This document shows, piece after piece, positions 6,689-53,332 of a stretch of 57,197 nucleotides of DNA. The stretch spans positions 1-57,197 of the forward strand of contig JAFZOW010000078.1 in the NCBI GenBank assembly GCA_017552715.1, read 5' to 3'. A program made the translations under genes and the position numbers. Source of the DNA: Lachnospiraceae bacterium (GTDB taxonomy: Bacteria; Bacillota; Clostridia; Lachnospirales; Lachnospiraceae). Under the pieces are notes generated by a model. The model saw only the letters and a list, made by a program, of their open reading frames with translations. It was not told where the DNA came from and searched no databases. Numbering within the stretch: the stretch's first letter is position 1; each line of letters opens with the position of its first letter.

Positions 6689-6717
6689 TTGACATATCCG
6701 CTTTCGTTCTGTATCGT
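6689..6717 (+). promoter_or_regulatory. Predicted sigma-A promoter of the CDF exporter gene
   Basis: The consensus -35 TTGACA (6689-6694) is followed after 17 bases by TATCGT (6712-6717). The start site would fall about 6723-6725, inside the left arm of the following inverted repeat. It lies just after the permease stop codon. Confidence 0.6.
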
Positions 6718-6718
6718 A

Positions 6719-6755
6719 ACTGTTCGGAGAGTTATTTCTCTCCGGACAGTTTTTT
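6719..6755 (+). terminator. Hairpin with T-run after ABC operon, overlapping the CDF start site
   Basis: A 13-bp inverted repeat (ACTGTTCGGAGAG / CTCTCCGGACAGT, one G-T pair) with a TTATTT loop is followed by six T. It ends the ABC operon. Because a promoter lies directly upstream, the same repeat could also be an operator for the CDF gene. Confidence 0.8.
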
Positions 6756-6776
6756 GAATGGAGTGCGGAAAAAGAG

Positions 6777-7913: not shown

Positions 7914-7922
7914 GGGGAAAAC

Positions 7923-8372: not shown

Positions 8373-8385
8373 GGGAGGATGGGGA

Positions 8386-9081
8386 ATGCTTACAAAAGAG
8401 ATACAAAAAAGCCTTTTTGAGCTGCAGGACGAGAAATACCGGGATTTTCAGAGCAAACTGATCCCGACTGTCGACAGCAAAAAGATGATCGGGGTGAGAA
8501 CGCCGGAGCTTCGAAAATATGCCAAAGAACTGCTTAAGAAGGAAGAGCTTCAGAGCTTTCTTAACGAGCTGCCCCATTCGTATTTTGATGAAGATCAGCT
8601 CCATGCTTTTATCATTTCCGGAATGAAGGATTATGAAAAATGCATGGAAGAGCTGGAACGTTTCCTTCCTTACGTGAATAACTGGGCCACCTGCGATCAG
8701 ATGTCTCCCAAGGTCTTTAAAAAGCATAAAAAAGAATTGGCGGAAAAAATAAAGATATGGATACATTCCGATGAGACATACACCATACGCTTCGGGATCG
8801 GCATGCTGATGGAGCATTTCCTGGATGAGGATTTTGATCCCGCATATCCGGAAATGGTGACGCTTCTCCGTTCGGATGAGTATTACGTCAATATGATGAT
8901 CGCCTGGTATTTTGCCACGGCCCTGGCAAAACAATACGATAAAGCCCTGCCTTATATGGAAAAGCACAGGCTGGATGACTGGACACATAACAAGGCGATA
9001 CAGAAAGCGGTGGAAAGCTATCGTATCACAGAGGAACAGAAGAAATACTTAAAGAGCCTTAAGATACCCCGTTCCTCATGA
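8386..9081 (+). CDS. DNA alkylation repair protein (AlkD-like HEAT-repeat family)
   Basis: A 231-residue helical protein of the DNA_alkylation family, related to AlkD DNA glycosylases that remove N3- and N7-alkylated purines. Family signs are the opening LTKEIQKSLFELQDEKYRDF, the VRTPELRKYAKEL segment, NNWATCDQMSPKVFKK and IRFGIGMLMEHFL. The frame is open upstream into the GNAT gene, but the ATG at 8386 follows AGGGAGGATGGGG and matches the family start. Its stop codon overlaps the stop of the convergent diguanylate cyclase gene in a shared TCATGA. Repair activity is inferred from the family; some members have other roles. Confidence 0.88.
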   Translation: MLTKEIQKSLFELQDEKYRDFQSKLIPTVDSKKMIGVRTPELRKYAKELLKKEELQSFLNELPHSYFDEDQLHAFIISGMKDYEKCMEELERFLPYVNNWATCDQMSPKVFKKHKKELAEKIKIWIHSDETYTIRFGIGMLMEHFLDEDFDPAYPEMVTLLRSDEYYVNMMIAWYFATALAKQYDKALPYMEKHRLDDWTHNKAIQKAVESYRITEEQKKYLKSLKIPRSS

Positions 9082-38474: not shown

Positions 38475-41400
38475 ATGATCGGTGAGCAGCAGTTTATAGA
38501 ATCTTCTTTTTATTTCACGGGCTTTTTTATCTGCCTGTCCTGTCTTGTGTTCTCTTTGGTGCAAAGGCGGACGAAAAGGCCGCAGAACCGTATCTTTTTC
38601 ATCCTTCTCTTAAACATCATGTTCGGAGCTGCATCCGATGCGGTGAGTGTGTTTTCGGATGTTTACTGTTCCGTTTCAGCCACGGCCGGATTCATTTCGA
38701 AGCTTTCCCGGATCAGTTATTTTGTCATACATGCTTCCCTGGCTCCTTCCTTTTATGCTTATCTGGTCTATGTAAGCGGTTCCATTCATGTTCACCGCCG
38801 GCATAAAAGGCGTTTTACCCTGATCATGCTTCCCTTCCTCGTTACGGAGATCCTGGTGGTGGTCAATCTCTTTACCGGGGTGCTGTATTACCTGGATGAG
38901 GATTATGTCTATCATCGCGGGCCACTGATGAGTATCTTTTATCTTTCGGCCGCATTTTACCTGTTACTGGCTTTACTGGATATCGTTCTTTTCTGGCATG
39001 CCATTACACCCCGCAGCCGGAAGGGCATCATCTACCTTTTCAGCCTTACCCTGCTGGGGGTGGTGATTCAGATGATCAATATCCATATCCAGTCCGAGGT
39101 GTTTGCCGAGTCCATGGCACTGGTGCTGGTGATGCTCTTTATCGAAAACGATGAAGACCGTTTTGATGTATCCAGCGGTTTCTTTAACCGTTCGGCCCTG
39201 TCGCTGGATCTGAACAGCTATATCCGTATGAAGATCCCCTTCACGGCTACGGTGGTCTATGTATCCAATGCGGATGTGCTGAGTAAGCTGACGGGGAGTG
39301 CGGCTACCGAGGGCCTGACCGAGATGGTATCGGATTATCTGTGTTCCGTACATCCCGTCTATCAGATCTATAAGACGGAACCGGGATGTTTTGTACTTCT
39401 GGGGATCGATACGAAAGCGGAAGAGGATGAGGCTCTCTCCGAAAAGATAAGGACCCGCTTCAGGGATCCCTGGAACAGGGAGGGGGTGGAGATCTCCCTG
39501 AATTCGCTGGTGATGCAGGCTGCATATCCCGGAAGTATTTCCACCGTGGAGGAAGTTTTCCTCATGTCGGATTTCCCCAAGGGGGCGGATGAAGCCGGTC
39601 ACATCCTCAGGGAAGTGGACCTGGATCAGATCAAACGCAGCATCCAGGTGGAGCAGGCTATGCGCCGGGGCTTTGCGGAGCATAACTTTGAAGTTTACTA
39701 TCAGCCGGTCTATTTCCTGGACAATCTGGCGATCCATTCCGCCGAGGCGCTGACCCGGCTGCATGACCGGGAGCTGGGGGAGATCTCTCCGTCGGAATTC
39801 ATACCGGTAGCGGAACGGGACGGCATCATCGACCGTATCGGGAACTTTGTGCTGGAGGAAGCCTGTCTCTTTCTTTCCAGCGGTCTTCCCGTGGAGATGG
39901 GCATAGAATATATCTGCGTGAACCTTTCCATACTGCAGTGCCTGCGTCCGGGCTTTGCGGACTATGCCAGGAATATGGTTCTGCGCTATGATGTTTCGCC
40001 TTCCCTGATCTGCTTTGAGATAAAGGAGTCGGCAGCGACCAGGGATCTGGAGGTCCTGCGGAAGATGATCGCCGAACTGAAGCAGTATGGTTTTCGTTTT
40101 TCCATGGACAGCTACGGTACAGGGCTTTCCGATCTGCAGTCCTTATACAGTCTGGATCTGGATGTGATCAAGATCGACAAGAGCATCTTAAACGGTGCGG
40201 ATGAGGGAAGCGTAGGACGGGTTGTGCTGGAAAGCTGTGTACGCATGATACGTCAGATGCACCGGCGCATCCTGGTGGAAGGGGTAGAGACCAAAGAGCA
40301 GATCGAACTGCTGAAAAAGCTGAATGTGGATTATCTGCAAGGCTATTATTCCTCACGCCCCATCACAAAGAACGAGCTTTTGGGTATCCTGCGGGTGACG
40401 GAGCTGGCACGCATGGAGGAGCGGCGTGCCATAGCGGCCAGCGAGGCAAAATCAAGCTTCCTGGCCAACATGTCCCACGAGATCCGTACTCCCATTAATG
40501 CGGTGCTGGGCATGAACGAGATGATACTCCGGGAATGCGATGAATCCGCCGTGATGCGTTACGCCAGAGAGATCGAGACCGCAGGCCGGAATCTTCTGTC
40601 CCTTATCAACAATATCCTGGATTATTCCAAGATCGAGGCCGGGGAGATGGAGATCGTGGAGGCCGAATACGATCTTAAGACGGCTTTAAGTGATGTGATA
40701 AGAGATGTTTATCGTAAGACCGACCAGAAGCATCTCACTTTCCGTGTCTATGTCTCGGAGGAGCTGCCGGCGCGGCTTTATGGCGATGAGTTCCGCTTAA
40801 AACAGGTGATGATGAACATCCTGAACAATGCCGTAAAATATACTGATGAAGGCAGCATACACCTGACCATCGAAGGAGAGTACTATTCTGAGGAGGAGGT
40901 ACTCTTAAAGATCATCGTGGAAGATACGGGCTGCGGCATACGGGAGGAGGATCAGAGCCGGCTTTACGAGATGTTCCAGCGGCTTGATATGGAGCGTAAC
41001 CGTACCGTGGAAGGAACGGGACTGGGCCTGGCCATCAGTTACCACCTGCTGCAGATGATGCAGGGTGAGATCGATGTGCAGAGCGAATACGGCGTAGGAA
41101 GCACCTTTACGATACAGCTTCTGCAGAAAGCCGTTTCCAAAGAGCGTATACGGCCTTATACGGCGGAGGAGCTTAAGGATATATTTGCCAGCCGCAAAGG
41201 CCGAAGGGAGTTCTCGGCACCGGATGCAAGGATATTGGTGGTAGATGATACGCCTCTGAATCATACCGTGATCCGGGAACTGCTGAAATCGACGGGAATA
41301 CAGATCGAAACGGCCCTGAGCGGTGAAGAGGGATTGGAACTGGCCCGGAAGAAGTATTTTGACCTGATCTTTATGGATCAGCGCATGCCGGGAATGGGCG

Positions 41401-41612
41401 GTAGCGAGACCCTGACGGCGCTTCGGGCGGCGGAAGATGCCGTAAGCCGCAGGGTACCCGTTATATCCATGACAGCCAATGCCTATCCCGGAATACGGGA
41501 TGCGGAGCGGAGGCAGGGCTTTGATGACTATCTGGAAAAACCGGTGGACAGCGGAAAGCTTTTGGAGCTTATCCTGCAGTATCTGCCGGAGAGCAAGGTA
41601 TTTTACAGCTGA
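38475..41612 (+). CDS. EAL-domain hybrid histidine kinase (7TM-GGDEF*-EAL-HisKA-HATPase-REC)
   Basis: A 1045-residue membrane sensor. Residues about 1-220 hold about seven helices. About 230-385 is a GGDEF-fold domain in which the signature has decayed to EPGCF, so it cannot make c-di-GMP. About 395-640 is an EAL domain with the EAL triad at 424-426 and VEGVET intact, but the metal motif DDFG reads DSYG (Ser546), so hydrolysis is doubtful and c-di-GMP sensing is likely. Then come HisKA (His668 in NMSHEIRTP), HATPase (NILNNAVKY, DTGCGI, GTGLGLAI) and REC (Asp968). It should pass phosphate to the neighbouring response regulator or HPt. EAL and kinase in one chain in this order is unusual. Confidence 0.9.
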   Translation: MIGEQQFIESSFYFTGFFICLSCLVFSLVQRRTKRPQNRIFFILLLNIMFGAASDAVSVFSDVYCSVSATAGFISKLSRISYFVIHASLAPSFYAYLVYVSGSIHVHRRHKRRFTLIMLPFLVTEILVVVNLFTGVLYYLDEDYVYHRGPLMSIFYLSAAFYLLLALLDIVLFWHAITPRSRKGIIYLFSLTLLGVVIQMINIHIQSEVFAESMALVLVMLFIENDEDRFDVSSGFFNRSALSLDLNSYIRMKIPFTATVVYVSNADVLSKLTGSAATEGLTEMVSDYLCSVHPVYQIYKTEPGCFVLLGIDTKAEEDEALSEKIRTRFRDPWNREGVEISLNSLVMQAAYPGSISTVEEVFLMSDFPKGADEAGHILREVDLDQIKRSIQVEQAMRRGFAEHNFEVYYQPVYFLDNLAIHSAEALTRLHDRELGEISPSEFIPVAERDGIIDRIGNFVLEEACLFLSSGLPVEMGIEYICVNLSILQCLRPGFADYARNMVLRYDVSPSLICFEIKESAATRDLEVLRKMIAELKQYGFRFSMDSYGTGLSDLQSLYSLDLDVIKIDKSILNGADEGSVGRVVLESCVRMIRQMHRRILVEGVETKEQIELLKKLNVDYLQGYYSSRPITKNELLGILRVTELARMEERRAIAASEAKSSFLANMSHEIRTPINAVLGMNEMILRECDESAVMRYAREIETAGRNLLSLINNILDYSKIEAGEMEIVEAEYDLKTALSDVIRDVYRKTDQKHLTFRVYVSEELPARLYGDEFRLKQVMMNILNNAVKYTDEGSIHLTIEGEYYSEEEVLLKIIVEDTGCGIREEDQSRLYEMFQRLDMERNRTVEGTGLGLAISYHLLQMMQGEIDVQSEYGVGSTFTIQLLQKAVSKERIRPYTAEELKDIFASRKGRREFSAPDARILVVDDTPLNHTVIRELLKSTGIQIETALSGEEGLELARKKYFDLIFMDQRMPGMGGSETLTALRAAEDAVSRRVPVISMTANAYPGIRDAERRQGFDDYLEKPVDSGKLLELILQYLPESKVFYS

Positions 41613-41621
41613 GGCCAAAGG

Positions 41622-43544
41622 ATGATCTATGAACTGATCAATACAAGTGCATTCCTGATCGCGGCTTTCCTGCTGTGCCTGACGGCACTTCTGTTTACTA
41701 TTGCCATTAAGCGGACGGACCGCATGCGGAACAAGATCTATATCCACCAGCTGGTATTTGTGATGATCTGTTCCCTGGCGGAGATCGGAAAGAAGCTGAT
41801 CCGTCTGTACGTGGTAAATCAGACCGCCGCGCTGGTACTGCTGGACGGAGTGGAATTTTTGCATTCCTTCTTCCATATCCTGCTGCCGGGCATGTTCTGT
41901 TATTACATCGTACTGATGAACGGTTCCCATCATCATCTTTCGACGAAGAAGCGTATCATTGTCTCCCTTCCCATGGTCGTCGCGGAACTGCTGGTACTGA
42001 CCAATCCCTTCCATCAGCTGGTGTTTGAGCATGGCAGGGACCTGGTATTTCACGGCGGTATCGGAAGTATGTTTGCATACGGGGTAGCCGGCCTGTATAT
42101 GCTCCTGGGCCTGATCAATCTTATAAAACACCGTAAGGCCCTTCCCCGCCGCCGGCTCATGTCGATGATCTTCTTATTTCCTCTTGTTGCGGCGGGCATA
42201 GTGATACAGCAGATCATTCCGGGAGTCAAATGCGAGCTCTTTGCCATCTCCCTGATGCTCCTGGGTGTGATGCTCACCCTGGAAAACGAAGATGACCGCA
42301 TGGATACTGTGACCAGGGTTTATAACCGCAGTTACATGAAAGAGTATCTCTCCAATCTTTTCCGCCTGGACCAGCCTTTTGGCATCATAGCCATACGGCT
42401 TACGAATTATGATACTCTTATGCGGCTTTCCGGAAAGAGCGGAGTGGATCCTGTGATGTGCCGTGTTGCCGATTACCTTAAAGCGGAGCATCCCTGGTTT
42501 AAGATCTTCCGTGCATCCCCTACGGGATTTCTGATAATCACCGGATCGGGTGAGGATTATACCGTACGGCTTTCGGAACGTATCTATGTGCGTTTCATGG
42601 AAGGGCTCTTTGTTGAGGGGATTGAAACACCCATTACAGCCGCCGTCCTCCGGGCCATGGTGCCCGGGGAACTGCCCGGCATCGAAGATGTGCTGCTTAC
42701 GGTGGATGGAGCGCTTCCGGAAGATAACGGCAGGGGGATCATCAGCGGGAATCGTCTGGCTTACCTGACCCGTACCACGGATCTGGAGGAGGCCATGGGG
42801 CGCTGCCTGCGAAACAGGGATTTCAGTATATGGTATCAGCCGGTTCATTCGGCGGAAGGACTGAAGCCATTTGGAGTAAAGGCACTTCTGCGTATGCATG
42901 ATGTGAGGCTCGGGGATGTGATGCCCGCAGAGTTCATACCCCAGGCGGAACGGACGGGACTTATCAACGTCCTGGGAGATCTGGTCCTGGAGGAAGTGTG
43001 CAGTTTTATCAAGAGCGGGGTGCCCGATAAGCTGGGGTATCGGATGGTCTGCGTGAATCTCTCTTTTGTGCAGTTTATGCAGAGGGGCTTCCCGGAGCAT
43101 GTGATCGAGATCGTGAAACGTTATGGGGTGGATCCGGGAAGCATCAACTTTGAGATCACCAAGCCCGTGACCCAGGAAGATTTTGATCTGCTGAAGGGCG
43201 CCATGGAAACGCTGAAAAAAGCCGGCTTTTTGTTCTCCATGGAGGATTTCGGCGCAGGCTATGTCAATGTGGAAGCCATATTTGCATTGAAATTCGATGT
43301 GGTTAAGATCGACAGGCGCGTTCTTTGGGAGGCCATGAAGAACGAACTGGGACGTATCGTTCTGACCAATTCCATTCAGATGATACGGCAGCTGGATCGT
43401 AAGATCCTGGTGGAAGGTGTTGAGGAGCGGGAGCAGATCGACCTTCTTTCCGATATGGAAGTGGACTATCTGCAGGGATATTATTTCTCGAAACCCGTAT
43501 CCCGTGAACAGATGGAAAAGATGGCTATGCTGGAGGATATGTGA
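41622..43544 (+). CDS. Membrane protein with degenerate GGDEF and EAL domains (7TM-GGDEF*-EAL*)
   Basis: A 640-residue paralogue of its two neighbours, without the kinase part. About 1-215 contains some seven helices; a GGDEF-like domain (about 230-385, signature SPTGF) and an EAL domain (about 395-640) follow. The EAL triad is KAL (Lys420), DDFG is EDFG (Glu541) and the EITE motif is EITK, so three catalytic positions are changed and phosphodiesterase activity is very unlikely. It may bind c-di-GMP, or pair with the kinases through the shared sensor and EAL parts. It lies 9 bases after the first kinase gene and overlaps the second (GTGA). Confidence 0.88.
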   Translation: MIYELINTSAFLIAAFLLCLTALLFTIAIKRTDRMRNKIYIHQLVFVMICSLAEIGKKLIRLYVVNQTAALVLLDGVEFLHSFFHILLPGMFCYYIVLMNGSHHHLSTKKRIIVSLPMVVAELLVLTNPFHQLVFEHGRDLVFHGGIGSMFAYGVAGLYMLLGLINLIKHRKALPRRRLMSMIFLFPLVAAGIVIQQIIPGVKCELFAISLMLLGVMLTLENEDDRMDTVTRVYNRSYMKEYLSNLFRLDQPFGIIAIRLTNYDTLMRLSGKSGVDPVMCRVADYLKAEHPWFKIFRASPTGFLIITGSGEDYTVRLSERIYVRFMEGLFVEGIETPITAAVLRAMVPGELPGIEDVLLTVDGALPEDNGRGIISGNRLAYLTRTTDLEEAMGRCLRNRDFSIWYQPVHSAEGLKPFGVKALLRMHDVRLGDVMPAEFIPQAERTGLINVLGDLVLEEVCSFIKSGVPDKLGYRMVCVNLSFVQFMQRGFPEHVIEIVKRYGVDPGSINFEITKPVTQEDFDLLKGAMETLKKAGFLFSMEDFGAGYVNVEAIFALKFDVVKIDRRVLWEAMKNELGRIVLTNSIQMIRQLDRKILVEGVEEREQIDLLSDMEVDYLQGYYFSKPVSREQMEKMAMLEDM

Positions 43545-46500
43545 TCAAACGGGGCTGGATAACACAACTGCATGAATCGGGGATGCTGATCGCCACGATC
43601 CTTATGGGTGTGGCAATGCTCATCTATACCCTGGTGCAGCGCCGGATCGAAAAGAAGCAGAATAAAGCTTTTGTGGCCCTGGTGGCCATCGTAGCCTTTG
43701 ATGCCCTTACGGATGTGGTGAAGATCTTTGCGCTCACTTACTATGCCGAGCTGGAGATCTGCCGGGCACTGGTCCATTTGATGCGCTACCTGTATTTCGC
43801 CACCCACAGCATCTTAAGCGCTATCTTCTTCTATTACGTTCTCCTGGCCAGCGGAATGGCGGAGCGTATGACGAAAAAAGAAAGCCGTATCAAGGGCATG
43901 CTTTATATGATCCCCATGGGGATAAGCCTGCTGCTGGCCCTGACCAATCCCTTCACTCACCTGGTTTACGTTCTTGGTTCGGAGGGGCACAGCTTCCGCG
44001 GACCCGGAGAAGGCGTGATCTACCTGGTGTCGATACTGTATTTTGCCCTGGCGGCCTTTACGCTGATCGTGAACTGGCATTCCATCAGCCGTATGAAGAA
44101 GACCACCACCATCATCTTCTTTATGTTCAGCCTGACGGGCATACTGATACAGCTTCTGGATTCCCGTATCCGCTGTGAGCTTTTTGCCGAGATGCTGGCG
44201 CTGGGAGGCATCATGCTCATGGTGGAAAATGAAGATGAACGGCTGGATATGTCTACCCGGGTATATAACCGTTCGGCGCTGATCTCGGATCTGATGACCA
44301 CACTAAAGCTGCTGCCCGGTTTTGAAGTAGTATGCGTACGCATCACGAACGCGGATACCCTGCAGCGTCTCCTGGGCACCGCCGATACGGAGATACTGAT
44401 CCGTCTGGCTGCGGATTACCTGTGCACGGTCCATCCCAGGCAGTATATCTACCACACCACGCCGGATTCCTTTATCCTGATCTGCCCCGGAGGGGATGAT
44501 CAGGCGTATGGACTTGCGGAAAAGATCAGGGGACGTTTTTCCGAAAGCTTTGAATTCCTGGAGACACAGTTTGATCTGCAGGCAGTTGTGATGTGCTGCG
44601 ATGTGAAGAATATCTTTGAAAGGAATGAGGATATCCTGCTCCTCTGTGACGGTCCGCTGCCAAGCCTTGATAAGGATCATGTGCTTGAGGATTCGGAGCT
44701 GGATTATCTGGTACGGCAGGCGGAGGTAGAGAGTGCTCTGCATCGCGGCATCTCGGAACGGCGTTTTGAGGTTTACTATCAGCCGGTCTACCGCATGAAG
44801 GGCATGTCCATATATTCGGCGGAAGCTTTGCTCCGTCTGAAGGATTCCAAGATCGGAAACATCATGCCGGACGAGTTCATCCCCATCGCGGAGCAGAACG
44901 GCCTGATCGGCCAGCTGGGGGATTATGTTCTGGAGGAGGTATGCCTGTTCCTTTCCAGCGGTATACCTACGGAAATGGGACTGGACTGCATCGAGATCAA
45001 CCTGTCCGTCCTGCAGTGTCTGCGGCCCGGTTTTGTGGATTCGGTGCTGCGCATCGTCCGCAAATACGATGTGGAGCCGCGCTTCATCAATTTTGAAGTA
45101 ACGGAATCTGCGGCTACAAGTGATTATGCCGTGCTGGATGCGGTATTAAACGACCTGAAGGCTGCCGGTTTCCTGCTGTCCCTGGATGATTACGGTATCG
45201 GTTATTCCAATGTGCGCAGCGTATTCTCCCTGGATTTTGATCTGGTAAAGATCGACAAATCCATCCTCTGGGAAGTGGAGGGAGACACGGAGGCCGGGCG
45301 CAAGGGCCGGGTGATCCTGGAGAACAGTGTGCGCATGATAAGGCAGATGAAGCTGAAGATCCTGGTGGAAGGCGTGGAGACCTACGAACAGCTTGAACTG
45401 CTGGAGGATCTGGAAGTAGATTACCTGCAGGGTTATTACTTCTCGAGACCCGTTAGCAAGAACGAGCTGCTGGGCATACTGCGCGTGACGGAGCTGGCCC
45501 GTATGGAGGAGCAGCGTGCCAGGGCGGCCAGTGATGCCAAGAGTAATTTCCTGGCCAATATGTCTCATGAGATCCGCACGCCCATTAATGCCATCCTGGG
45601 CATGAACGAGATGATACTGCGGGAGAGCAAGAACAAGCACATCCTGGAATATGCCCAGAATATCGAAGGCGCGGGCCGTACTCTGGTGAGCCTGATCAAC
45701 GACATCCTGGATTTTTCCAAGATCGAATCCGGCAGCATGGAGATCGTGGAGGCGGAATACGACCTCAGTTCTGTGGTAAATGATGTAGTAAACATGATAC
45801 AGGTGAAGGCCAGGGAGAAGGATCTGGCATTCAATATAAAGGTGAATCCGGATCTGCCGGATACCCTCTTCGGCGACGGCATGCGCCTGCGCCAGATCAT
45901 GACCAATATACTGAACAATGCGGTGAAATATACCCAGAAGGGCAGTGTGACTCTGGATATAAACGGAAATCTCCTGGGAAAGGATCAGCTGCAGCTCATC
46001 ATTTCGGTAACGGATACGGGTATCGGGATAAAGGAAGAGGATATAGGAAAGCTCTTCACCAAGTTCCAGCGTCTGGATGAGGGAGTGAACCGGGCCATCG
46101 AAGGCAGCGGTCTGGGGCTGGCCATTACCTACAGCCTGCTGCAGATCATGAACGGCGAGATCGATGCGCGTTCGGTTTACGGCGAAGGTTCCACCTTTAC
46201 CATACTGCTGCCCCAGAAGATCGTCAGGAACGAGGCCATAGGAGACTTCCGTACGAAGTATATCAGCACGGTGCAGGATCGTGTGGTCTACCATGAGAGC
46301 TTCCGGGCACCGGATGCCAAGATCCTCGTTGTGGATGACACGGCGGTCAACCATATGGTGATCAAGGAGCTGTTAAAGCTTACGAAGATACAGATCGACA
46401 CGGCCATGAGCGGAAAGGAATGCCTGGAAATGGTGCAGACCACGCCCTATGACCTGGTGCTCCTGGACTTCCGCATGCCGGAGATGGACGGTATAGAGAC

Positions 46501-47338
46501 CCTACATATCATGCGGGCGCTGGAAAACAATCCCAATGAGAAGACGCCGGTGATCGCCCTTACAGCCAATGCGGTGACAGGTGCGAGAGAACGTTTCCTG
46601 AGTGAGGGCTTTGATGAATACATGATCAAACCCGTGGAAGGACCGAGGCTGGAAGAGATGCTCCTCCACTTCCTGCCCAAATCCAAGATACTGGCAGCCA
46701 GCCCGCATACGGAGGCGGAAGAAGAAGCGGCGGTGGAGAAAGTGGCGGAAGAGAGCTGGACAGACGCCCTGGTGGGCATCGATACGGCGACAGGTATACG
46801 GAACTGCGGCTCCGAGTCGGGTTACCGCAGCGTGCTGAAGATCTATTACGACGGCTGCAGCCAGAAGGCGGATGAGATCGCCCGGTATTATAAGGAAGAG
46901 GATTGGGAGAATTATACCATACAGGTGCATGCGCTGAAGAGTTCCAGCCGCGTTATAGGGGCCATGGAGCTTTCCCGGCTGGCGGCGGAGCTGGAAAAGG
47001 CCGGGAATGAGCTGAATCTTGACCGGATCCGTTCCGATACGGATGAGCTGCTTTCCATGTACCGCGAGCTTGGCGGAAGACTGGGATTATTGCTCGAGCC
47101 GGCCGAAGAGGAGAAAAAAGAGGCGGATGAGCTTCCACCCATCAGTGAATCCGCCCTCCGGGATGCTATCGAGACAATGAAGGACTTTGCAAAAATGTAT
47201 GATTATGATAATATGATATTCGTTTTGGATTCGCTGAAGGAATATCGCCTCAGTGATGAGGAAGCGGATCGCATGAGAAAGATACGTGATTTTACTGAAG
47301 CCTTCCAGTGGGAAGAGATCATGAAGATATTGGGATAA
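43541..47338 (+). CDS. EAL-domain hybrid histidine kinase with HPt (7TM-GGDEF*-EAL-HisKA-HATPase-REC-HPt)
   Basis: A 1265-residue membrane sensor, the most complete of the three. About seven helices (1-220) precede a degenerate GGDEF domain (signature TPDSF) and an EAL domain with EAL at 428-430, FEVTES and LDDYG (Asp549, Asp550) intact, so it may cleave c-di-GMP. HisKA (His676), HATPase (NILNNAVKY, DTGIGI, GSGLGLAI), REC (Asp976 in LLDFRMPEMDG) and a C-terminal HPt domain (His1130 in VHALKSSSRVIGA) provide a whole phosphorelay. The start is GTG, overlapping the previous stop. About 100 further residues follow the HPt, ending in a short helical domain. Confidence 0.92.
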   Translation: MIKRGWITQLHESGMLIATILMGVAMLIYTLVQRRIEKKQNKAFVALVAIVAFDALTDVVKIFALTYYAELEICRALVHLMRYLYFATHSILSAIFFYYVLLASGMAERMTKKESRIKGMLYMIPMGISLLLALTNPFTHLVYVLGSEGHSFRGPGEGVIYLVSILYFALAAFTLIVNWHSISRMKKTTTIIFFMFSLTGILIQLLDSRIRCELFAEMLALGGIMLMVENEDERLDMSTRVYNRSALISDLMTTLKLLPGFEVVCVRITNADTLQRLLGTADTEILIRLAADYLCTVHPRQYIYHTTPDSFILICPGGDDQAYGLAEKIRGRFSESFEFLETQFDLQAVVMCCDVKNIFERNEDILLLCDGPLPSLDKDHVLEDSELDYLVRQAEVESALHRGISERRFEVYYQPVYRMKGMSIYSAEALLRLKDSKIGNIMPDEFIPIAEQNGLIGQLGDYVLEEVCLFLSSGIPTEMGLDCIEINLSVLQCLRPGFVDSVLRIVRKYDVEPRFINFEVTESAATSDYAVLDAVLNDLKAAGFLLSLDDYGIGYSNVRSVFSLDFDLVKIDKSILWEVEGDTEAGRKGRVILENSVRMIRQMKLKILVEGVETYEQLELLEDLEVDYLQGYYFSRPVSKNELLGILRVTELARMEEQRARAASDAKSNFLANMSHEIRTPINAILGMNEMILRESKNKHILEYAQNIEGAGRTLVSLINDILDFSKIESGSMEIVEAEYDLSSVVNDVVNMIQVKAREKDLAFNIKVNPDLPDTLFGDGMRLRQIMTNILNNAVKYTQKGSVTLDINGNLLGKDQLQLIISVTDTGIGIKEEDIGKLFTKFQRLDEGVNRAIEGSGLGLAITYSLLQIMNGEIDARSVYGEGSTFTILLPQKIVRNEAIGDFRTKYISTVQDRVVYHESFRAPDAKILVVDDTAVNHMVIKELLKLTKIQIDTAMSGKECLEMVQTTPYDLVLLDFRMPEMDGIETLHIMRALENNPNEKTPVIALTANAVTGARERFLSEGFDEYMIKPVEGPRLEEMLLHFLPKSKILAASPHTEAEEEAAVEKVAEESWTDALVGIDTATGIRNCGSESGYRSVLKIYYDGCSQKADEIARYYKEEDWENYTIQVHALKSSSRVIGAMELSRLAAELEKAGNELNLDRIRSDTDELLSMYRELGGRLGLLLEPAEEEKKEADELPPISESALRDAIETMKDFAKMYDYDNMIFVLDSLKEYRLSDEEADRMRKIRDFTEAFQWEEIMKILG

Positions 47339-47351
47339 GCGAGGGAAAGAC

Positions 47352-48116
47352 ATGGCAAAGCGGGTGTTGCTGATACGAAAAGAGGAGACATTTCTGGTCA
47401 ATACCATACGTTCGCAGCTGGAAAAGAACAACTACGGATATATCGAATGCGGATTGAACCTGAAGGAACTCAGTAAATACAAGGATGAAGTCAAGCTCAT
47501 GGTGCTCTATGTGGATGATACCACAGGGGAAGCAAGGGAAGCTCTGGTCTACATCAAGGATCTTCTGCTGGAGGAGGAGAAGAATCTGATCCTCTGCGGT
47601 GTGCGGGGGGATCTGGATGAAGTGGAAAAGATCATCTCGCCGGATCTGGTGGAAGCGGAATATGAACGGCCCTTTGATATGAGCCGCATCATGGAGAATA
47701 TCGGGGAATTCCTGGATGAGACGCTGATACAGCAGCGTAAGAAGATGATACTGGTGGTGGATGACGATCCCACTTATCTTAAGCTCATCAAGGAATGGCT
47801 GAAGGAGGATTACCGGGTGGGAATGGCCAATTCCGGGATGCAGGCCATTACCTGGCTTGCCAATAATTCGGCGGACCTGGTCCTGCTGGATTACGAGATG
47901 CCTACCATCAAGGGCTCAAAGGTGCTGGAGATGCTTAAATCCGAAGCGAATTCCTCCACGATCCCCGTGATGTTCCTTACGGGAAAGAGCGACAAGGACA
48001 GCATCGTGGAAGTGCTGGCGCTAAAGCCTGCCGGATATCTTTTGAAGACCATAGACCGGAATACCCTCCTGGATACGCTGGAGAAGTTCTTTGTGGAGCA
48101 GAAGTATAAGAAATAA
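47352..48116 (+). CDS. Stand-alone response regulator (pseudo-REC plus REC)
   Basis: A 254-residue protein with two receiver-like folds and no output domain. The first (about 1-120) lacks the acidic pocket and phosphoacceptor. The second (about 131-250) is intact: VVDDDPTYL, Asp180 in LVLLDYEMP, Thr in FLTGKSD and Lys in YLLKT. It starts 13 bases after the HPt-kinase gene, so it is the likely phosphate acceptor of the EAL kinases and should act by protein contact. Confidence 0.88.
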   Translation: MAKRVLLIRKEETFLVNTIRSQLEKNNYGYIECGLNLKELSKYKDEVKLMVLYVDDTTGEAREALVYIKDLLLEEEKNLILCGVRGDLDEVEKIISPDLVEAEYERPFDMSRIMENIGEFLDETLIQQRKKMILVVDDDPTYLKLIKEWLKEDYRVGMANSGMQAITWLANNSADLVLLDYEMPTIKGSKVLEMLKSEANSSTIPVMFLTGKSDKDSIVEVLALKPAGYLLKTIDRNTLLDTLEKFFVEQKYKK

Positions 48117-48180
48117 GCGGCGGCGTTTCGATCTTTGCGCCGGAAAGTATATTTGATAAGAAAGAGAAATAAGGTTTCCC

Positions 48181-49137
48181 ATGAATAATCTGTTGAACAA
48201 GATGGAAAAAAAGCTGGGGAGATACGCAATACCGCGGCTTCCCATGGTCATGCTCATCACTTATGCCATAGGCTATGTGATGCAGACCATCAATCCCGGG
48301 ATCATCGATGTTATCTCCCTGAATCCCTATGCGATCCTTCACGGCCAGCTGTGGCGCGTGATTTCCTGGATACTGATCCCGCCGGAGGTCACCAATCTCT
48401 TTTTTGTGCTCATCATGCTGTATTTCTATTATTCCATCGGGAATACACTGGAGCGCACCTGGGGGACCTTCTATTTTAATCTGTACTTTTTTTCCGGCCT
48501 GCTCTTTACCCTGATCGGAGCCTTCTGCATGTATGCCTATGCCAGTCTGTTCCAGGGGGATGAGATCGCACTGGCCGAGCAGTATTATATACTGCAGACC
48601 GGGACGGAATGCCCGGCTCTTTACGGCGGGAACTATTATTTTTGCATGGTAGCGGAGCTTTTCTCCACCTATTATATCAACATGTCCATTTTCCTGGCAT
48701 TTGCGGCCACCTATCCGGACATGCAGGTACTGCTCATGTTCTTCATTCCCATCAAGGTAAAGATCCTGGGAGTGATCTACGGGGTCATCCTGGTGGTGGA
48801 AGCCTACGATATGTGCCGTTCTTCCGGATCGCCCCTGGGGCTTTTCGTGATCGGTGCGTCCCTGCTTAACTTCCTTGTATTCTTCCTTATCACCCGCAAG
48901 GGGCTGAGACTTCGTTCTCCCCAGGCCAGAGCCAGACAGCGGCAGTTCCGTCAGAATGTCCGCCAGGCCCAGGATGTGCGCCGCACCATAGCCAGACATA
49001 AATGTGCGATCTGCGGCCGTACCAGTGACGAGTATCCGGATCTGGAGTTCCGTTTCTGTTCCAAATGTGAGGGGAATTACGAATACTGTCAGGATCATCT
49101 TTTCACGCATAAGCATTTTACAAGGAGCGGAAGCTGA
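48181..49137 (+). CDS. Rhomboid-like membrane protein without protease residues, with C-terminal zinc ribbon
   Basis: A 318-residue protein with about six helices. The segment HGQLWRVISWIL followed by YYSIGNTLERTWGTFYFNLY matches loop L1 and TM2-3 of rhomboids (the WR motif), but the GxSG serine and the catalytic His do not appear, so it is a pseudo-protease. After an Arg/Gln-rich linker (about 243-278), the C-terminus has Cys pairs CAICG and CSKCEG and later Cys/His (YCQDHLFTHKHF), a zinc ribbon on the cytoplasmic side. It starts about 65 bases after the response regulator and overlaps the next gene by 1 base. Its role is unknown; scaffold or membrane adaptor is a guess. Confidence 0.75.
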   Translation: MNNLLNKMEKKLGRYAIPRLPMVMLITYAIGYVMQTINPGIIDVISLNPYAILHGQLWRVISWILIPPEVTNLFFVLIMLYFYYSIGNTLERTWGTFYFNLYFFSGLLFTLIGAFCMYAYASLFQGDEIALAEQYYILQTGTECPALYGGNYYFCMVAELFSTYYINMSIFLAFAATYPDMQVLLMFFIPIKVKILGVIYGVILVVEAYDMCRSSGSPLGLFVIGASLLNFLVFFLITRKGLRLRSPQARARQRQFRQNVRQAQDVRRTIARHKCAICGRTSDEYPDLEFRFCSKCEGNYEYCQDHLFTHKHFTRSGS

Positions 49138-49862
49138 TGGATGAGAAGAGTTTTATCCGTGATATAACGGCCCTGAAAGAAACGGCCGTGCTTCAGGGCG
49201 GAGTGCTTTCCGAAGAGCAGGTGGAGGAAGTATTTCCCGCTCTTACAAAGGAACAGAAAGATGTGCTCATGAAGTATTTTCATGAGAATCATATAGGCAT
49301 CGGCGAAGCCCTGCCAGATGAGGAGATACTGGATCCGGAGGAAAACGATCATATCCGGATCTATCGTGAGGAACTGGAGAGCCTGGTACAGCCGGACGAG
49401 GACATGAAGCGCGTTCTTGTGATCAACGCGCTGAACGGGGACATAACGGCCCGGGAAAAACTGACCCAGGCCTATCTGGGCAATGTGCTGGACATAGCCA
49501 GACTGTATACCGGGCAGGGAGCGGAGCTGGCAGACCTGATCGGGGAAGGTAACCTGGCCCTGGCCGCAGCCATGAACATGCTGGGCAGCATAGAAGGTCC
49601 AGAGGATTGTGATGCCCTGGTCTCCCGCACGGTGATGAATGCCATGGAGGAGCTGATCGCGGCGGAGAATGCCGAAACCGAAGCCTTCCAGCGCAGCATG
49701 CTGCTGGTGATGAAGGCCGTAAAGGCAGCGAAGGAGCTTTCGGAGGAAATGCGCAGGAAGGTGTCGGTTGCGGAAGTACTTGCCGAAACCGAGATGAGCG
49801 AGGATGAGCTTAAGCATGCCATCTCGCTTTCGCCGGATCTGCTGGAATATATTGCTTTATGA
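49137..49862 (+). CDS. Degenerate RpoD-like sigma-70 homologue
   Basis: A 241-residue protein that looks like a reduced housekeeping sigma factor. Residues about 24-60 resemble region 1.1 (LSEEQVEEVFPALTKEQKD), about 70-112 region 1.2 (HIRIYREELESL, ALNGDITAREKLTQAYL), and about 109-150 regions 2.1-2.2 (GNVLDIARLYTGQGAELADL then IGEGNLALAAAM). A final segment (about 206-240, SVAEVLAETEMSEDELKHAI) is like part of region 3. The promoter-melting and -10-reading regions 2.3-2.4 and the -35-reading region 4 are absent. It could bind core RNA polymerase without directing it, for example as an antagonist. The call rests on patterned similarity and needs a profile search. Confidence 0.62.
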   Translation: MDEKSFIRDITALKETAVLQGGVLSEEQVEEVFPALTKEQKDVLMKYFHENHIGIGEALPDEEILDPEENDHIRIYREELESLVQPDEDMKRVLVINALNGDITAREKLTQAYLGNVLDIARLYTGQGAELADLIGEGNLALAAAMNMLGSIEGPEDCDALVSRTVMNAMEELIAAENAETEAFQRSMLLVMKAVKAAKELSEEMRRKVSVAEVLAETEMSEDELKHAISLSPDLLEYIAL

Positions 49863-50245
49863 ACGATACGGATTATAAATACGTATTACAGGATTTTTCA
49901 AAGACCATGATCGGTGCCCGTTTCAGCTATTCGGAGCTGATGGATGCGGAGCGGGTCCCTTTCAAGTTCAGGACCATCGTGGACCGGCTGATCCTTCCTT
50001 ATGCCGATGGGGATATGACACTGGAGCAGCATCTGCTCAGCCTTACTCCGGAGGATAAGAACTACCGGATCTACGATAGCCTGAAAACAAAGATAAAGTT
50101 TTTTGAGCCCAAAGCGGGAGGAGGCTTCCGCGAGCGGGTCGTGGACCTTAAGAGATTTACAGAGGCCAGGGCGGCGTGGAGCGATGCTCACATGATACAG
50201 GAGATCATCATCTCGAACCTGGCGTTGAGCGGGTTCAGATTGTAG
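49859..50245 (+). CDS. Hypothetical protein, 128 aa
   Basis: A 128-residue soluble protein, coupled to the sigma-like gene by an ATGA overlap. It has aromatic and basic patches (YKYVLQDFSKTMIGARFSYSE; KTKIKFFEPKAGGGFRERVV) and no recognised domain. Since it is the last gene before the palindromic element, it likely belongs to the same transcript as the sigma-like protein. Confidence 0.72.
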   Translation: MNDTDYKYVLQDFSKTMIGARFSYSELMDAERVPFKFRTIVDRLILPYADGDMTLEQHLLSLTPEDKNYRIYDSLKTKIKFFEPKAGGGFRERVVDLKRFTEARAAWSDAHMIQEIIISNLALSGFRL

Positions 50246-50410: not shown

Positions 50411-53332
50411 ATGAACATAGATAATCTGACAGCATACAAACTGATCGAGCATCACTATTCGGAAGATCTGAAGAGCGAAGCCTATCTGCTGGAGCATATA
50501 AAGAGCGGTGCGCGTATCTGTGTACTGGAAAACGATGACGAGAACAAGGTGTTCTATATCGCTTTCCGCACACCGCCCAAGGATTCCACCGGCGTGGCTC
50601 ATATCCTGGAGCATTCCGTGCTCTGCGGCTCCGACGCTTTTCCGCTGAAGGATCCCTTTGTGGAGCTGGCGAAGAGTTCGCTGAATACCTTCCTTAATGC
50701 CGTGACTTATCCGGATAAAACGGTCTATCCCATTGCCAGCTGCAATCAGCAGGATTTCAAGAATCTGATGCACGTGTATATGGATGCCGTGCTGCACCCG
50801 AACATCTATAAGGAAAAGAAGATCTTCCTGCAGGAAGGCTGGCATTACGAAACGGATGAGGCCGGGGAGCTGATCATCAACGGTGTGGTCTATAACGAGA
50901 TGAAGGGAGCTTTCTCCGCTCCGGATGATGTGCTCATGCGGGAGACATTTTCTTCCCTCTTTCCTGATACAACCTACGGGGTGGAGAGCGGCGGTGATCC
51001 CCAGGTGATCCCCGAGCTTACATACGAAGATTTTCTGGCTTTCCATTCCGCTTACTATCATCCCGCTAATTCCTATATCTATCTTTACGGTGATGCGGAT
51101 ATGGAGGAGCGCCTGAACTGGCTGGATGAGGCGTATCTGTCCGCTTATGAACGGATCTCCATCGATTCCATGCCGGGGCTGCAGAAGAGTTTCGATAAAG
51201 CGCAGCTGATCCGTAAGGAATATCCCATCACGGAAGCGGAAAAGGAAGAAGATCAGTGTTATCTTTCCTGGAACGCCGTGATAGGCACGTCACTGGATCC
51301 GCAGCTCATGCTGGCCTTTCAGATGATCGATTATGCGCTGGTGGGAGCGGACGGAACGCCCCTGCGCAAAGCCCTGATCAAAGCCGGTATCGGAACGGAA
51401 GTATACTCGGCTTATGAAGTGGATGAGTTACAGCCCTTCTACAGTATCGTTACAAAGAATGCCGGGGAAGACGACAGGGAACGGTTCGAGAGCATCATCC
51501 TGGAAGAGCTTAAGAAAGCTGTGGAAGAGGGGCCGGATGAGGATGCGCTCCTGGCCTGTGTGAATACCATGGAATTCCATTTCCGTGAGGGTGATACGGG
51601 ACGCTATCCCAAGGGACTGCTCTACGGTCTGAAGGCTCTGGACAGCTGGCTCTATGATGCGGATAAGCCTCTGATCCATCTGGAGATCCTGGATCTGTAT
51701 AAAAAACTGCGCGAGCTTATAGGAACGGATTATTACAGCAAACTGATCAAGACCTATCTGCTGGAAAATACCCATCGCAACGTTCTGGTGCTGGCTCCGA
51801 AAAAAGGACTGACCACCGAGCGGGACGAAGCACTGGCGAAGAAGCTTAAGGAATACAAAGAGGGGCTTTCCGAAGCGGAGTACGAAAGGATAAAGACCGA
51901 AGCGAAGGAACTGAAGGAATGGCAGGATGCGGAGGAAAGCGAAGAGCTGCTGGAATGCCTGCCTTCTCTTAAGTTCAGCGATCTGAGGAAAGAGATCATC
52001 CCTCTTTCCAACCGGGAAACCGAATGCTGCGGCATAAAGACCGTTTTCCATGAAACGGAGACCAACGGCATCATTTACTTAAACCTGTTGTTCAATGTGG
52101 ATGGTATGCCCCTTCGGCTCTACCCTTATGCTGGGCTCTTCAGCCGTGTGCTCTGCTCCATGGATACGGAGAATTACGATTATGCCCGGCTGGGTTTCGA
52201 GATCGATAAAAAGACGGGAAATATTAGCGCCGGCGGGATGTATTCGGTTCCCGGCGGTGACAGTTCGAAATACGGTAAATACCTGACCATGAGCTTAAGC
52301 TGTCTGGACAGCCAGCTGGAGGAAGCGCTGGAACTTCTTCGTGAAGTGATGCTTACCACGAAGCTGGATGATACGCAGAGACTGAAGGAGATCATCGCGG
52401 AGCTGCGTTCCCGTATGGCAGGGAGCATGATGAGCAGCGCCAATACCGTGGCTTCCGGCCATGCGCTGGCTTATATCTCGCCTTTTGCAAAAGCCAGGGA
52501 AATGATCGGAGGCTTGGATTTCTTCCGTTTCCTGGAAGATGCGGAGGAGCATTTTGAGGAAAAGAAAGACGAGCTGACGGCAGGACTTAAGGAGATGGCG
52601 CGCTATGCCTTCCGGAAGGACAATCTCCTGCTGGATGTTACGGGGAGCGAGACCGAACTTAAGCTGCTGGAAGGAAAGCTGGAGGGGATCTGCGGCGGAT
52701 TGTCTCCGGAGATACCCGAAGCTTCGGACGAAAAGCCTGTGATCGAAAAGCGGAACGAGGGCTTCTGCTGTTCCGGACAGGTTCAGTATGTTTGCAGGGC
52801 GGGGGATTACAAGGCCCATGGATTGGAGTATACCGGGGCGATACAGGTGATGCGGACCATTCTGGCATACGATTACCTCTGGAGCGAGGTGCGTGTAAAG
52901 GGCGGGGCCTATGGCTGCATGAACCGTTTCTGTACCAACGGGGAGTGCTATTTCGTATCCTACCGTGACCCGAACCTGACCCAGACCATTGATACATTCT
53001 GCGGGGTTGCCGATTATATCAGGAACTTTACGGCGGATGAGAAGCAGATGATACGTTATATCATCGGAACCCTGAGCGATCTGGATATTCCCATGACACC
53101 GAGGGCAAAGGGAGCCCGCTCGCTGCAGGCCTATCTGGACGGGGATACAAACGAAAGCCTGCAGAAGAGAAGGGATCAGCTCCTTGCCACAAGGCAGGAT
53201 GAGATCCGGGCTCTGGCAGCGCATATAGATGCCCTGCTTTCGGATGAGTCACTTTGTGTAGTGGGTAATGAAGAAACCATCAAGGCGGCCGGCGATATCT
53301 TCGGATCGGTAGCACCGCTGTTTACGAGATAA
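50411..53332 (+). CDS. M16C family zinc metallopeptidase (PreP-like, insulinase superfamily)
   Basis: A 973-residue peptidase. The inverted zinc motif HILEH is at 64-68 (His64, His68, catalytic Glu67) with the distal ligand Glu163 in NEMKGAFS. The size and the two-half structure (about 1-480 and 500-973, joined by a helical hinge near 470-530) match M16C presequence-degrading peptidases that destroy short unfolded peptides in a closed chamber. There is no signal peptide, so it is cytoplasmic. AAAAGGAG precedes the ATG, just after the palindromic element. Confidence 0.94.
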   Translation: MNIDNLTAYKLIEHHYSEDLKSEAYLLEHIKSGARICVLENDDENKVFYIAFRTPPKDSTGVAHILEHSVLCGSDAFPLKDPFVELAKSSLNTFLNAVTYPDKTVYPIASCNQQDFKNLMHVYMDAVLHPNIYKEKKIFLQEGWHYETDEAGELIINGVVYNEMKGAFSAPDDVLMRETFSSLFPDTTYGVESGGDPQVIPELTYEDFLAFHSAYYHPANSYIYLYGDADMEERLNWLDEAYLSAYERISIDSMPGLQKSFDKAQLIRKEYPITEAEKEEDQCYLSWNAVIGTSLDPQLMLAFQMIDYALVGADGTPLRKALIKAGIGTEVYSAYEVDELQPFYSIVTKNAGEDDRERFESIILEELKKAVEEGPDEDALLACVNTMEFHFREGDTGRYPKGLLYGLKALDSWLYDADKPLIHLEILDLYKKLRELIGTDYYSKLIKTYLLENTHRNVLVLAPKKGLTTERDEALAKKLKEYKEGLSEAEYERIKTEAKELKEWQDAEESEELLECLPSLKFSDLRKEIIPLSNRETECCGIKTVFHETETNGIIYLNLLFNVDGMPLRLYPYAGLFSRVLCSMDTENYDYARLGFEIDKKTGNISAGGMYSVPGGDSSKYGKYLTMSLSCLDSQLEEALELLREVMLTTKLDDTQRLKEIIAELRSRMAGSMMSSANTVASGHALAYISPFAKAREMIGGLDFFRFLEDAEEHFEEKKDELTAGLKEMARYAFRKDNLLLDVTGSETELKLLEGKLEGICGGLSPEIPEASDEKPVIEKRNEGFCCSGQVQYVCRAGDYKAHGLEYTGAIQVMRTILAYDYLWSEVRVKGGAYGCMNRFCTNGECYFVSYRDPNLTQTIDTFCGVADYIRNFTADEKQMIRYIIGTLSDLDIPMTPRAKGARSLQAYLDGDTNESLQKRRDQLLATRQDEIRALAAHIDALLSDESLCVVGNEETIKAAGDIFGSVAPLFTR

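Follow-up and report, generated by a model that had tools for sequence, protein, structure and literature searches.

Two adjoining gene units in a Lachnospiraceae genome: an EAL/hybrid-kinase set and a truncated RpoD paralogue predicted to be promoter-blind

Seven consecutive genes in a 57,197-nucleotide stretch of DNA from a Lachnospiraceae bacterium (here denoted the window) form two separate units, K1-E2-K3-RR and RHO-SIG-ORF7. The first encodes EAL proteins, hybrid histidine kinases and a response regulator. In the second, SIG is by its sequence an RpoD-derived protein of ~240 residues. The reading that we consider reasonably probable is that the two units are independent neighbours, a K3-based phosphorelay and a promoter-blind SIG that would bind core RNA polymerase. 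The reduced sigma factor is more interesting than the preliminary description of this DNA supposed.

Gene layout and occurrence of the two units

The coordinates of the seven ORFs were verified, and they agree with the preliminary description, which had reported consecutive co-directional genes with short gaps or overlaps (Table 1). The host is a rumen-type bacterium of the Lachnospiraceae. The second unit is followed by a peptidase, which judging from its sequence is of the M16C type, and then by era.

Table 1. Units and genes of the region, with positions in the window
Feature	Position	Strand	Description
Unit 1 (K1-E2-K3-RR)	38475-48116	+	putative membrane EAL/hybrid-kinase phosphorelay
K1	38475..41612	+	1045 aa; 7TM-like N-terminus, EAL, HisKA, HATPase_c, REC
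E2	41622..43544	+	640 aa; 7TM-like N-terminus, GGDEF remnant, EAL, no kinase
K3	43541..47338	+	1265 aa; 7TM-like N-terminus, EAL, HisKA, HATPase_c, REC, HPt
RR	47352..48116	+	254 aa; two receiver domains, no output domain
Unit 2 (RHO-SIG-ORF7)	48181-50245	+	widespread Lachnospiraceae gene set
RHO	48181..49137	+	318 aa; multi-pass membrane protein, zinc ribbon at C-terminus
SIG	49137..49862	+	241 aa; truncated RpoD paralogue, no region 4
ORF7	49859..50245	+	128 aa; small alpha/beta protein
Peptidase (presumed M16C-type)	50411..53332	+	downstream; constant neighbour of SIG/ORF7

All seven genes are under purifying selection, with dN/dS of 0.02-0.25 in every computable pair (two ORF7 pairs were saturated). 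Since orthologues also stand in order in relatives, the seven genes are not a product of chance. Scanning for promoters gave 9 predictions vs 11.5 expected, and for terminators 17 vs 9.9 expected; on the + strand, the gap between RR and RHO contains none of those listed.

The preliminary description had proposed a single module in which the c-di-GMP level sets kinase output and SIG relays the response to RNA polymerase, to be given up if the last three genes occurred widely without the EAL kinases. Among 25 regions from the same genus for which 8 kb or more upstream was read, unit 1 adjoins unit 2 in 9, with fixed order and strand, and RHO-SIG-ORF7 stands without neighbouring EAL kinases in 16. 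The full set is thus found in the window and in these 9 regions. Likewise, 75 of the 80 named loci carry RHO-SIG-ORF7 without adjoining EAL kinases, some of these loci reaching little upstream, and unit 2 was found across much of the Lachnospiraceae with unit 1 mostly absent beside it. The K3-RR pair occurs with no RHO-SIG-ORF7 alongside in three other genera of the family (loci L201, L202 and L204); one of the three (G401) has RHO-SIG-ORF7 on a different contig, and in another (G063) neither SIG nor ORF7 was detected. Because RHO-SIG-ORF7 is widespread without the EAL kinases, the claim of one module fails. In its favour are the order and strand common to the window and its 9 relatives, the short spacing between RR and RHO (just 64 bases in the window and 8 in three relatives) and the possibility that SIG acts on polymerase. 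Against these stand the occurrence of each unit without the other alongside, the presence of K3-RR in G063 where SIG was not detected, and a third, MscS-like gene located exactly at the border between the units in 5 of the 9 relatives. The suggested response of the reduced sigma to the kinases goes back to adjacency in one clade, and nothing measured supports a link between the two. We therefore regard the single module as exceedingly improbable.

EAL domains, kinases and regulator of unit 1

Pfam searches agree with the earlier report of two chains in which EAL is in line with a complete hybrid kinase. K1 contains EAL, HisKA, HATPase_c and Response_reg, and K3 has the same domains plus Hpt. 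E2, described earlier as a kinase-less paralogue, indeed has EAL without kinase domains, and a GGDEF remnant just above the cut-off. HisKA_7TM matches the membrane part of all three proteins, passing the cut-off for E2 and K3 and missing it for K1. The H-box, HATPase and REC are present in K1 and K3 of the window, as is HPt in K3. The H-box SHEIRTP was found in 20/20 K1/K3 sequences; exact patterns for REC and HPt left some sequences of the relatives unmatched, and that for the N-box fitted no sequence.

The active-site residues of the three EAL domains were compared in ten genomes, using the longer piece for K1 of L046 and K3 of L044, each of which is split into two frames in the assemblies. 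In K3, the residues E N E E D D K E are intact in 10/10, and the ninth residue, Q, is present in the 8 rows read, the remaining two being gapped. By these residues K3 is apparently an active c-di-GMP phosphodiesterase. In K1 the second Asp of the DDFG motif is replaced, by S in 9/10 genomes and by G in 1/10. E2 carries three changes, each in 10/10: the EAL Glu to Lys, the first Asp to Glu and the second Glu of ExxE to Lys/Arg; judged by these residues it is catalytically dead. The complete residue set of an active EAL phosphodiesterase was absent from K1 and E2 in 10/10 genomes. As a control, 4 of 8 EAL loci fetched from the window's own genome were read; 3 are intact and one (L004) has one change. 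One operon thus holds, in 10/10 genomes, three sister EALs at different stages, one complete, one lacking a single Asp and one without the catalytic Glu, a natural set in which to study phosphodiesterases becoming kinase-wired receptors.

RR had been called a pseudo-REC/REC regulator without output domain. This fits the Pfam result, a single detectable Response_reg in the C-terminal half with the first receiver unrecognised. The RR family has 9 matches in the window's own genome and occurs in 58/299 Lachnospiraceae genomes at E<=1e-30. The K3 homologues of L201, L202 and L204 match at 44-46% over the full length. Elsewhere in this genome, no long ORF with a HisKA pattern was found in ten regions covering 11 of the 20 EAL matches outside the window, and no description of the EAL-kinase cassette was recognised in open-licence PMC full text.

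Together, unit 1 would be a membrane phosphorelay centred on K3, a 7TM-like receptor in which an intact EAL phosphodiesterase precedes HisKA-HATPase-REC-HPt. K3 would pass phosphate to the output-less RR, a route suggested by the adjacency of the two genes in the window clade and in L201, L202 and L204. K1, which keeps the kinase, and E2, which lacks it, are tandem paralogues of K3 in this genus, in a duplication order that we infer. Their degenerate EALs are best read as putative c-di-GMP-sensing or dimerising partners.

RHO, ORF7 and the reduced sigma factor

At E<=1e-3, RHO has matches in 148/150 Lachnospiraceae genomes. It had been described as rhomboid-like with a zinc ribbon. The ribbon is upheld, its Cys/His set being invariant in 21/21 sequences, and the pseudo-rhomboid reading gains little: 1/21 family members matches DER1 at 1.4e-7 and 1/21 matches Rhomboid at 0.21. 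RHO of the window matches no Pfam family, and its comparison with PDB profiles gave no rhomboid match. In the membrane part, the 21 sequences have no invariant Ser or His column and no invariant protease dyad; the near-invariant S46, S85, S227 and H54 are, by our reading, outside the catalytic positions of rhomboid proteases, a Ser in TM4 and a His in TM6. A second, divergent RHO-SIG pair was seen in G001 (L067), from either a true second copy or contamination.

ORF7 was detected in 20 of the 150 genomes, all 20 with a strong SIG match, and SIG adjoins RHO in each of the 19 for which the position of RHO was listed. Pfam gave one chance-level match for ORF7 in the window and nothing recurrent in relatives. 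Foldseek gave four matches at E<=0.001, with TMq of about 0.65 to 4zoh_B and 3hrd.

SIG is matched by Pfam Sigma70_r2, r3 and r1_1 weakly, below the cut-off. Among 60 family members at E<=0.1, r2 was found in 59, r3 in 55 and r1_1 in 31. PDB profiles matched residues 8-234 (7l7b at E 3.5e-26, also 8x6f). The AF2 model has a mean pLDDT of 91.2, and the 50 Foldseek matches listed are without exception sigma chains or models of sigma with RNAP. Compared over its whole chain, SIG reaches low TM-scores against sigma structures (0.27-0.41, normalised by query length), the good match being restricted to the 1.2-2 part (5h6x_B, TMt 0.77, 2.2 A). The protein comprises sigma1.1, 1.2, 2.1-2.2, a rebuilt 2.3/2.4 and sigma3.

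Residue counts were taken from alignment A4 (59 of the 80 loci plus the window) and from a broader set, SIG2 (17 of 20 loci; L167 and L168 adjoin RHO and were left out, and the L161 gene was unrecovered). The equivalents of the core-binding residues D403, E407 and N409 of region 2.2 are present in 77/77 sequences and make up 3 of the 5 invariant columns in the diverse set A6. The equivalent of Q406, a residue important for core binding as well, is Gly in 60/60 RHO-linked SIG and Gln in 15/17 others. The promoter-melting and reading residues are nearly all lost: W433, W434 and R441 are each kept in 0/77, T440 in 1/77, Q437 in 2/77 and Y430 in 5/77. A 31-residue stretch over 2.3-3.0 goes from a charge of +4 in the genome's own RpoD to a median of -4 in SIG. 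Region 4 is absent, with 0-9 residues beyond sigma3 in SIG and 2-32 in SIG2; Sigma70_r4 matched weakly in 3/60 members (best 0.0047). RpoD-type controls have both tryptophans and region 4 in 21/21; these were selected by the 2.2 motif and so are no control for it. A complete RpoD-type sigma is also present in 12/12 Lachnospiraceae genomes checked. The preliminary description was thus right about an RpoD-like protein without DNA-reading regions and needs correction on the extent of the reduction, as sigma1.1 and sigma3 are retained beside 2.1-2.2.

SIG relatives are clear in at least 52/150 Lachnospiraceae genomes; none was among the matches listed in other families, and no match was found on plasmids. 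The broader family has varied neighbours and no fixed partner in the 17 loci read. SIG is not essential everywhere, since G009 (completeness 100) has no detected SIG and two members of the window's genus (L065 and L066) have lost sigma1.1 from it. Its dN/dS is 0.02-0.23 in 8 pairs, and a pseudogene was ruled out by purifying selection and breadth of occurrence. No description of SIG was recognised in open-licence PMC full text; the literature noted includes an excerpt of a C. phytofermentans start-site paper (PMC5171806).

Proposed role of SIG and comparison with known systems

SIG is most likely, judging from its residues, a promoter-blind binder of core RNA polymerase. As a primary-sigma paralogue it keeps the putative core grip (region 2.2) and sigma1.1, and it has lost the -10 melting and reading surfaces and the entire region 4. 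It would bind core polymerase without reading promoters and would compete with full sigma factors or hold idle polymerase. A more specific version, which we put forward tentatively, is that a lineage-specific sigma occupies core via region 2.2 and throttles or stores polymerase, with sigma1.1 perhaps plugging the DNA channel. The affinity for core may be low because region 4 and the 3.2 linker are missing, and the region 2.2 residues could be kept solely for folding. The Gly at the Q406 position in RHO-linked SIG also speaks against core binding. SIG was also considered as a more acidic DNA mimic overall; its net charge of -24 equals that of RpoD sigma1.1-3 (-25), so there is no global mimic signal, and the reversal is confined to 2.3-3.0.

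If the region 2.2 residues are structural, SIG may have left transcription to serve RHO or the M16C peptidase at the membrane. RHO and the peptidase are constant neighbours in one clade, where Gly has replaced Gln406 throughout, but the wider family keeps D/E/N (17/17) beside unrelated genes, and we find this explanation unlikely. SIG could instead act on RpoD as an anti-sigma factor rather than on core, as a sigma-derived fold with sigma1.1 and sigma3 still present could pair with other sigma surfaces; the residues of the core-facing 2.2 motif, however, rank with the best-conserved positions in the family, which makes such a role quite unlikely. It is very unlikely that SIG together with a separate region-4 protein initiates at special promoters. 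In B. subtilis, SigO-RsoA is a sigma factor split between two proteins that initiate together. Factors of this type exist, according to the available part of PMC10141391, and SIG keeps the sigma2 and sigma3 frames. Yet it has lost the -10 opening and reading residues beyond region 4, its operon neighbours have no region-4 or HTH domain above chance level in Pfam, and the broader family lacks a fixed partner in 17 loci. If the preferred reading, core binding without promoters, is true, the polymerase's own specificity factor has been turned into a protein decoy, and many members of a very common gut and rumen family would use it. A decoy derived from a cell's own primary sigma would be unexpected to transcription specialists.

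Several known systems resemble parts of the two units. According to the portion of PMC3509222 available, the hybrid histidine kinase SgmT of Myxococcus xanthus binds c-di-GMP through a GGDEF receptor at its own C-terminus, and its partner DigR binds DNA. K3 likewise joins a hybrid kinase to a c-di-GMP-related domain; as far as that portion goes, it differs in that an apparently active EAL precedes the kinase and that its partner has no output domain. RHO resembles the Rhomboid/Derlin superfamily in being multi-pass, with the DER1 match in one of 21 members, and differs by having no invariant membrane Ser/His and an added zinc ribbon. The fold of ORF7 moderately matches part of the medium subunits of CO dehydrogenase and xanthine dehydrogenase (molybdenum hydroxylases), whereas identity in the four Foldseek matches is 14-21%, and the ~120 columns aligned cover part of a longer chain. 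Like SigO-RsoA, SIG is sigma-derived without some sigma regions; unlike it, SIG also lacks promoter-reading residues and an adjoining region-4 partner. Compared with SigA/RpoD (7l7b, 8x6f), SIG lacks region 4, the melting tryptophans and the 2.4 base-reading residues, whereas it can be aligned from sigma1.1 through sigma3 and retains D/E/N of region 2.2.

Two gene units in the window

All seven co-directional ORFs announced in the preliminary description are present, separated by at most 64 bases or shortly overlapping, on what is contig C106 of a 3.43 Mb genome (G000). Pfam bore out the domain reading as well, returning EAL-HisKA-HATPase-REC for the kinase K1, the same plus Hpt for K3 and EAL alone for E2; the regulator RR gave one clear receiver and SIG, the truncated RpoD paralogue, weak sigma regions. 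When compared with NCBIfam, SIG reached no above-cut-off family among the matches listed (best PRK09210, 40.5 bits against 572), ORF7 matched no family and RHO only two weak ones. RHO is by sequence a multi-pass membrane protein; of its reading as a pseudo-rhomboid with a zinc ribbon, the ribbon stands, its Cys/His residues being invariant, and the rhomboid part is weakly supported, likeness to Derlin or rhomboid proteins being distant at most. The predicted fold of ORF7 is confident (pLDDT 94.5) and resembles part of molybdenum hydroxylase medium subunits (best E 1.7e-4, TMq 0.64), a likeness that does not imply function.

Coordinates of the features discussed
Feature	Sequence	Positions	Strand
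K1	window	38475-41612	+
E2	window	41622-43544	+
K3	window	43541-47338	+
RR	window	47352-48116	+
RHO	window	48181-49137	+
SIG	window	49137-49862	+
ORF7	window	49859-50245	+
M16C-type peptidase	window	50411-53332	+
RpoD of G000	L150 (G000:C93:1500-8500)	1904-4159	-
Region with the SIG-like gene outside the RHO-linked clade, M16C peptidase and era	L160 (G434)	3993-8800	
SIG without sigma1.1 domain	L065	14273-14845	
SIG without sigma1.1 domain	L066	4880-5392	
EAL-family protein, Cys motif	L196 (G000:C12)	1997-4606	-
EAL-family protein, Cys motif	L197 (C133)	705-3299	-

Gene order was checked in 31 same-genus regions out of 29 genomes, with gene labels assigned by similarity, and unit 1 (K1-E2-K3-RR) was scored in 25 same-genus regions that had 8 kb or more of readable sequence upstream of RHO. 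The proposal of a conserved seven-gene set failed this check, unit 1 lying beside unit 2 (RHO-SIG-ORF7) in 9 of the 25 regions and missing in 16. Its carriers (L039, L040, L041, L042, L044, L045, L046, L065 and L069) all show its genes in one fixed order, bounded by recG and RHO; L043 has RHO-SIG-ORF7 immediately after recG. RHO, SIG, ORF7 and the M16C peptidase gene are all there wherever the contig extends far enough, the genes missing in L063, L064, L067, L068 and L069 reflecting contig or region ends. A gene for a membrane protein that we take to be MscS-like lies exactly between RR and RHO in five of the nine two-unit relatives (L039, L040, L045, L046, L069); the RR-RHO gap in the remaining four is 8 or 43 bases.

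Among 80 named loci, which extend upstream of SIG to varying lengths, SIG is preceded by RHO in 77 (at most 200 bases away in 69) and followed by ORF7 in 79 and by M16C in 78; RHO, ORF7 and M16C occur together in 74. All four unit 1 genes are found in five (L070-L073, L095). An ORF7 match is absent from L102, and the sequences of L079, L112 and L124 start at or near SIG. Most of these loci are labelled Lachnospiraceae; the few MAGs labelled otherwise, such as L123 (Gastranaerophilales) and L127 (Muribaculum), probably bear doubtful labels, because their gene order is identical.

Distribution and ancestry of SIG

SIG was detected at E<=5e-19 in 31 of 35 genus genomes, G000 counted. G001 carries, besides a first RHO-SIG pair, a second, divergent one at L067 (G001:C220), which is either a second copy or contamination. 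Across 150 Lachnospiraceae genomes ORF7 occurs in 20, every one with a strong SIG match, and RHO in 148 at E<=1e-3. A broader profile, comprising SIG and SIG-like proteins located elsewhere, gave a match ranking above the first RpoD-length protein in at least 52 of the 150; two of these 52 frames are near 360 aa and the rest at most 320 aa, and about nine more short frames ranked lower among the matches listed. Across the order (294 genomes), all short SIG matches listed come from Lachnospiraceae; the matches listed outside this family lie in frames of at least 334 aa. With a narrower profile, only two of the matches listed from 289 phylum genomes (285 non-Lachnospiraceae) stood clear of RpoD, both from Lachnospiraceae.

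The SIG-like gene adjoins varied genes in the 17 loci examined; at L160 it lies upstream of an M16C peptidase gene and era, with no adjoining RHO. A 55-protein tree placed RpoD in a single clade (100/100), RHO-adjoining SIG in another (100/99) and the remaining SIG-like proteins in between, a topology with long branches and without a root test that is compatible with a single origin of SIG from RpoD.

Complete RpoD-type proteins were read at 21 loci, from G000, 11 other Lachnospiraceae genomes (two from one) and 8 other-family genomes of the order. L210 (G309) and L213 (G431) encode a different RpoD-like sigma, which has region 4 and a variant 2.4/3.0 sequence; G431 has an ordinary RpoD besides. 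RpoD of G000 (752 aa) bears a Lys/Ala-rich N-terminal extension of ~300 residues, reminiscent of histone H1, and RpoD-type frames in same-genus relatives reach 852 aa.

Anatomy and possible role of SIG

A 60-sequence SIG profile matched solved primary sigma factors along sigma1.1-1.2-2-3, among them C. difficile SigA (7l7b, E 3.5e-26) and S. aureus SigA (8x6f, query 8-234), and nothing of note lies downstream of sigma3. Pfam at E<=0.1 recognised region 2 in 59 of the 60 members and region 3 in 55; it detected region 1.1 in 31 members and region 4 in 3. We aligned 77 sequences (60 SIG and 17 SIG2, the SIG-like genes away from the RHO-linked clade) with G000 RpoD, using E. coli residue numbers. 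The equivalents of D403, E407 and N409 are retained in all 77; W433, W434 and R441 are retained in none, T440 in one and Q437 in two. Over a 31-residue 2.3-3.0 stretch the charge shifts from +4 in G000 RpoD to a median of -4. In the AF2 model (pLDDT 91.2) a single helix (155-205) spans 2.3-2.4 and 3.0; all 50 Foldseek matches listed are sigma chains or sigma-containing models, which score low in TM over the whole chain and match the 1.2-2 part well. Purifying selection maintains SIG, eight pairs giving dN/dS values of 0.02-0.23.

From the retained core-facing motif together with the loss of DNA reading, we infer that SIG would bind core polymerase without promoters. That it acts as a decoy, occupying core RNA polymerase through region 2.2, is our tentative reading, which we hold as possible rather than probable. 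Against core binding count the Gly that the RHO-linked clade has in place of Q406, the missing region 4 and the disappearance of sigma1.1 in L065 and L066; the 2.2 motif might also possibly be retained for folding instead. Other transcription-related roles, taken jointly, seem rather unlikely, and a role outside transcription we consider unlikelier still.

The EAL-kinase genes of unit 1

Active-site residues were compared in the window and nine relatives (10 genomes), at positions whose functional roles follow the EAL literature. K3 retains E, N, E, E, D, D, K and E in 10/10, and Q in all eight readable rows. K1 retains everything except the second Asp (S in nine, G in one). In all ten E2 sequences the EAL Glu is replaced by Lys and the first Asp by Glu, and the second Glu of ExxE has become Lys or Arg. 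Three of four other G000 EAL proteins examined are intact at these positions, and L004 has one change. L196 and L197 encode EAL-family proteins with an N-terminal ferredoxin-like cysteine motif, CVGCNKCINVC, which suggests that c-di-GMP turnover is under iron-sulphur or redox control.

A query across the K3 EAL-HisKA junction (150 genomes, at most 18 candidates scored in each) was matched over its whole length, among the matches listed, only in K3 and K1 of G000 and in two other genera (G401, G063), where a K3 homologue of 44-46% identity over ~1265 residues is followed by RR at 54-56%. RHO, SIG and ORF7 are absent from the region read around both pairs; in G401 RHO-SIG-ORF7 sits on a different contig, and genome searches of G063 found neither SIG nor ORF7. 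The pair also occurs in a third genus (G515). Of the best five RR matches outside the genus, the three in G401, G063 and G515 adjoin a K3; the two in G419 and G404 lack such a neighbour. The RR family is large (58 of 299 Lachnospiraceae genomes at E<=1e-30). G000 holds nine matches to these output-less, two-receiver proteins, on C8, C19, C22, C50, C61, C63, C93 and others, some adjoining hybrid kinases with other sensor types. Among copies of the family, L207 and L208 adjoin other hybrid kinases, L206 an EAL protein, and L203, L205 and L209 neither. The simplest history of unit 1 would be a K3-RR pair that later gained two tandem K3-like copies in the window's genus.

In open-licence full text, which mostly leaves out subscription papers, we recognised no description of the EAL-kinase cassette or of a Lachnospiraceae sigma paralogue like SIG. 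Among systems found in print, the one closest to unit 1 in function is SgmT, a hybrid kinase whose own GGDEF domain is the c-di-GMP receptor (PMC3509222).
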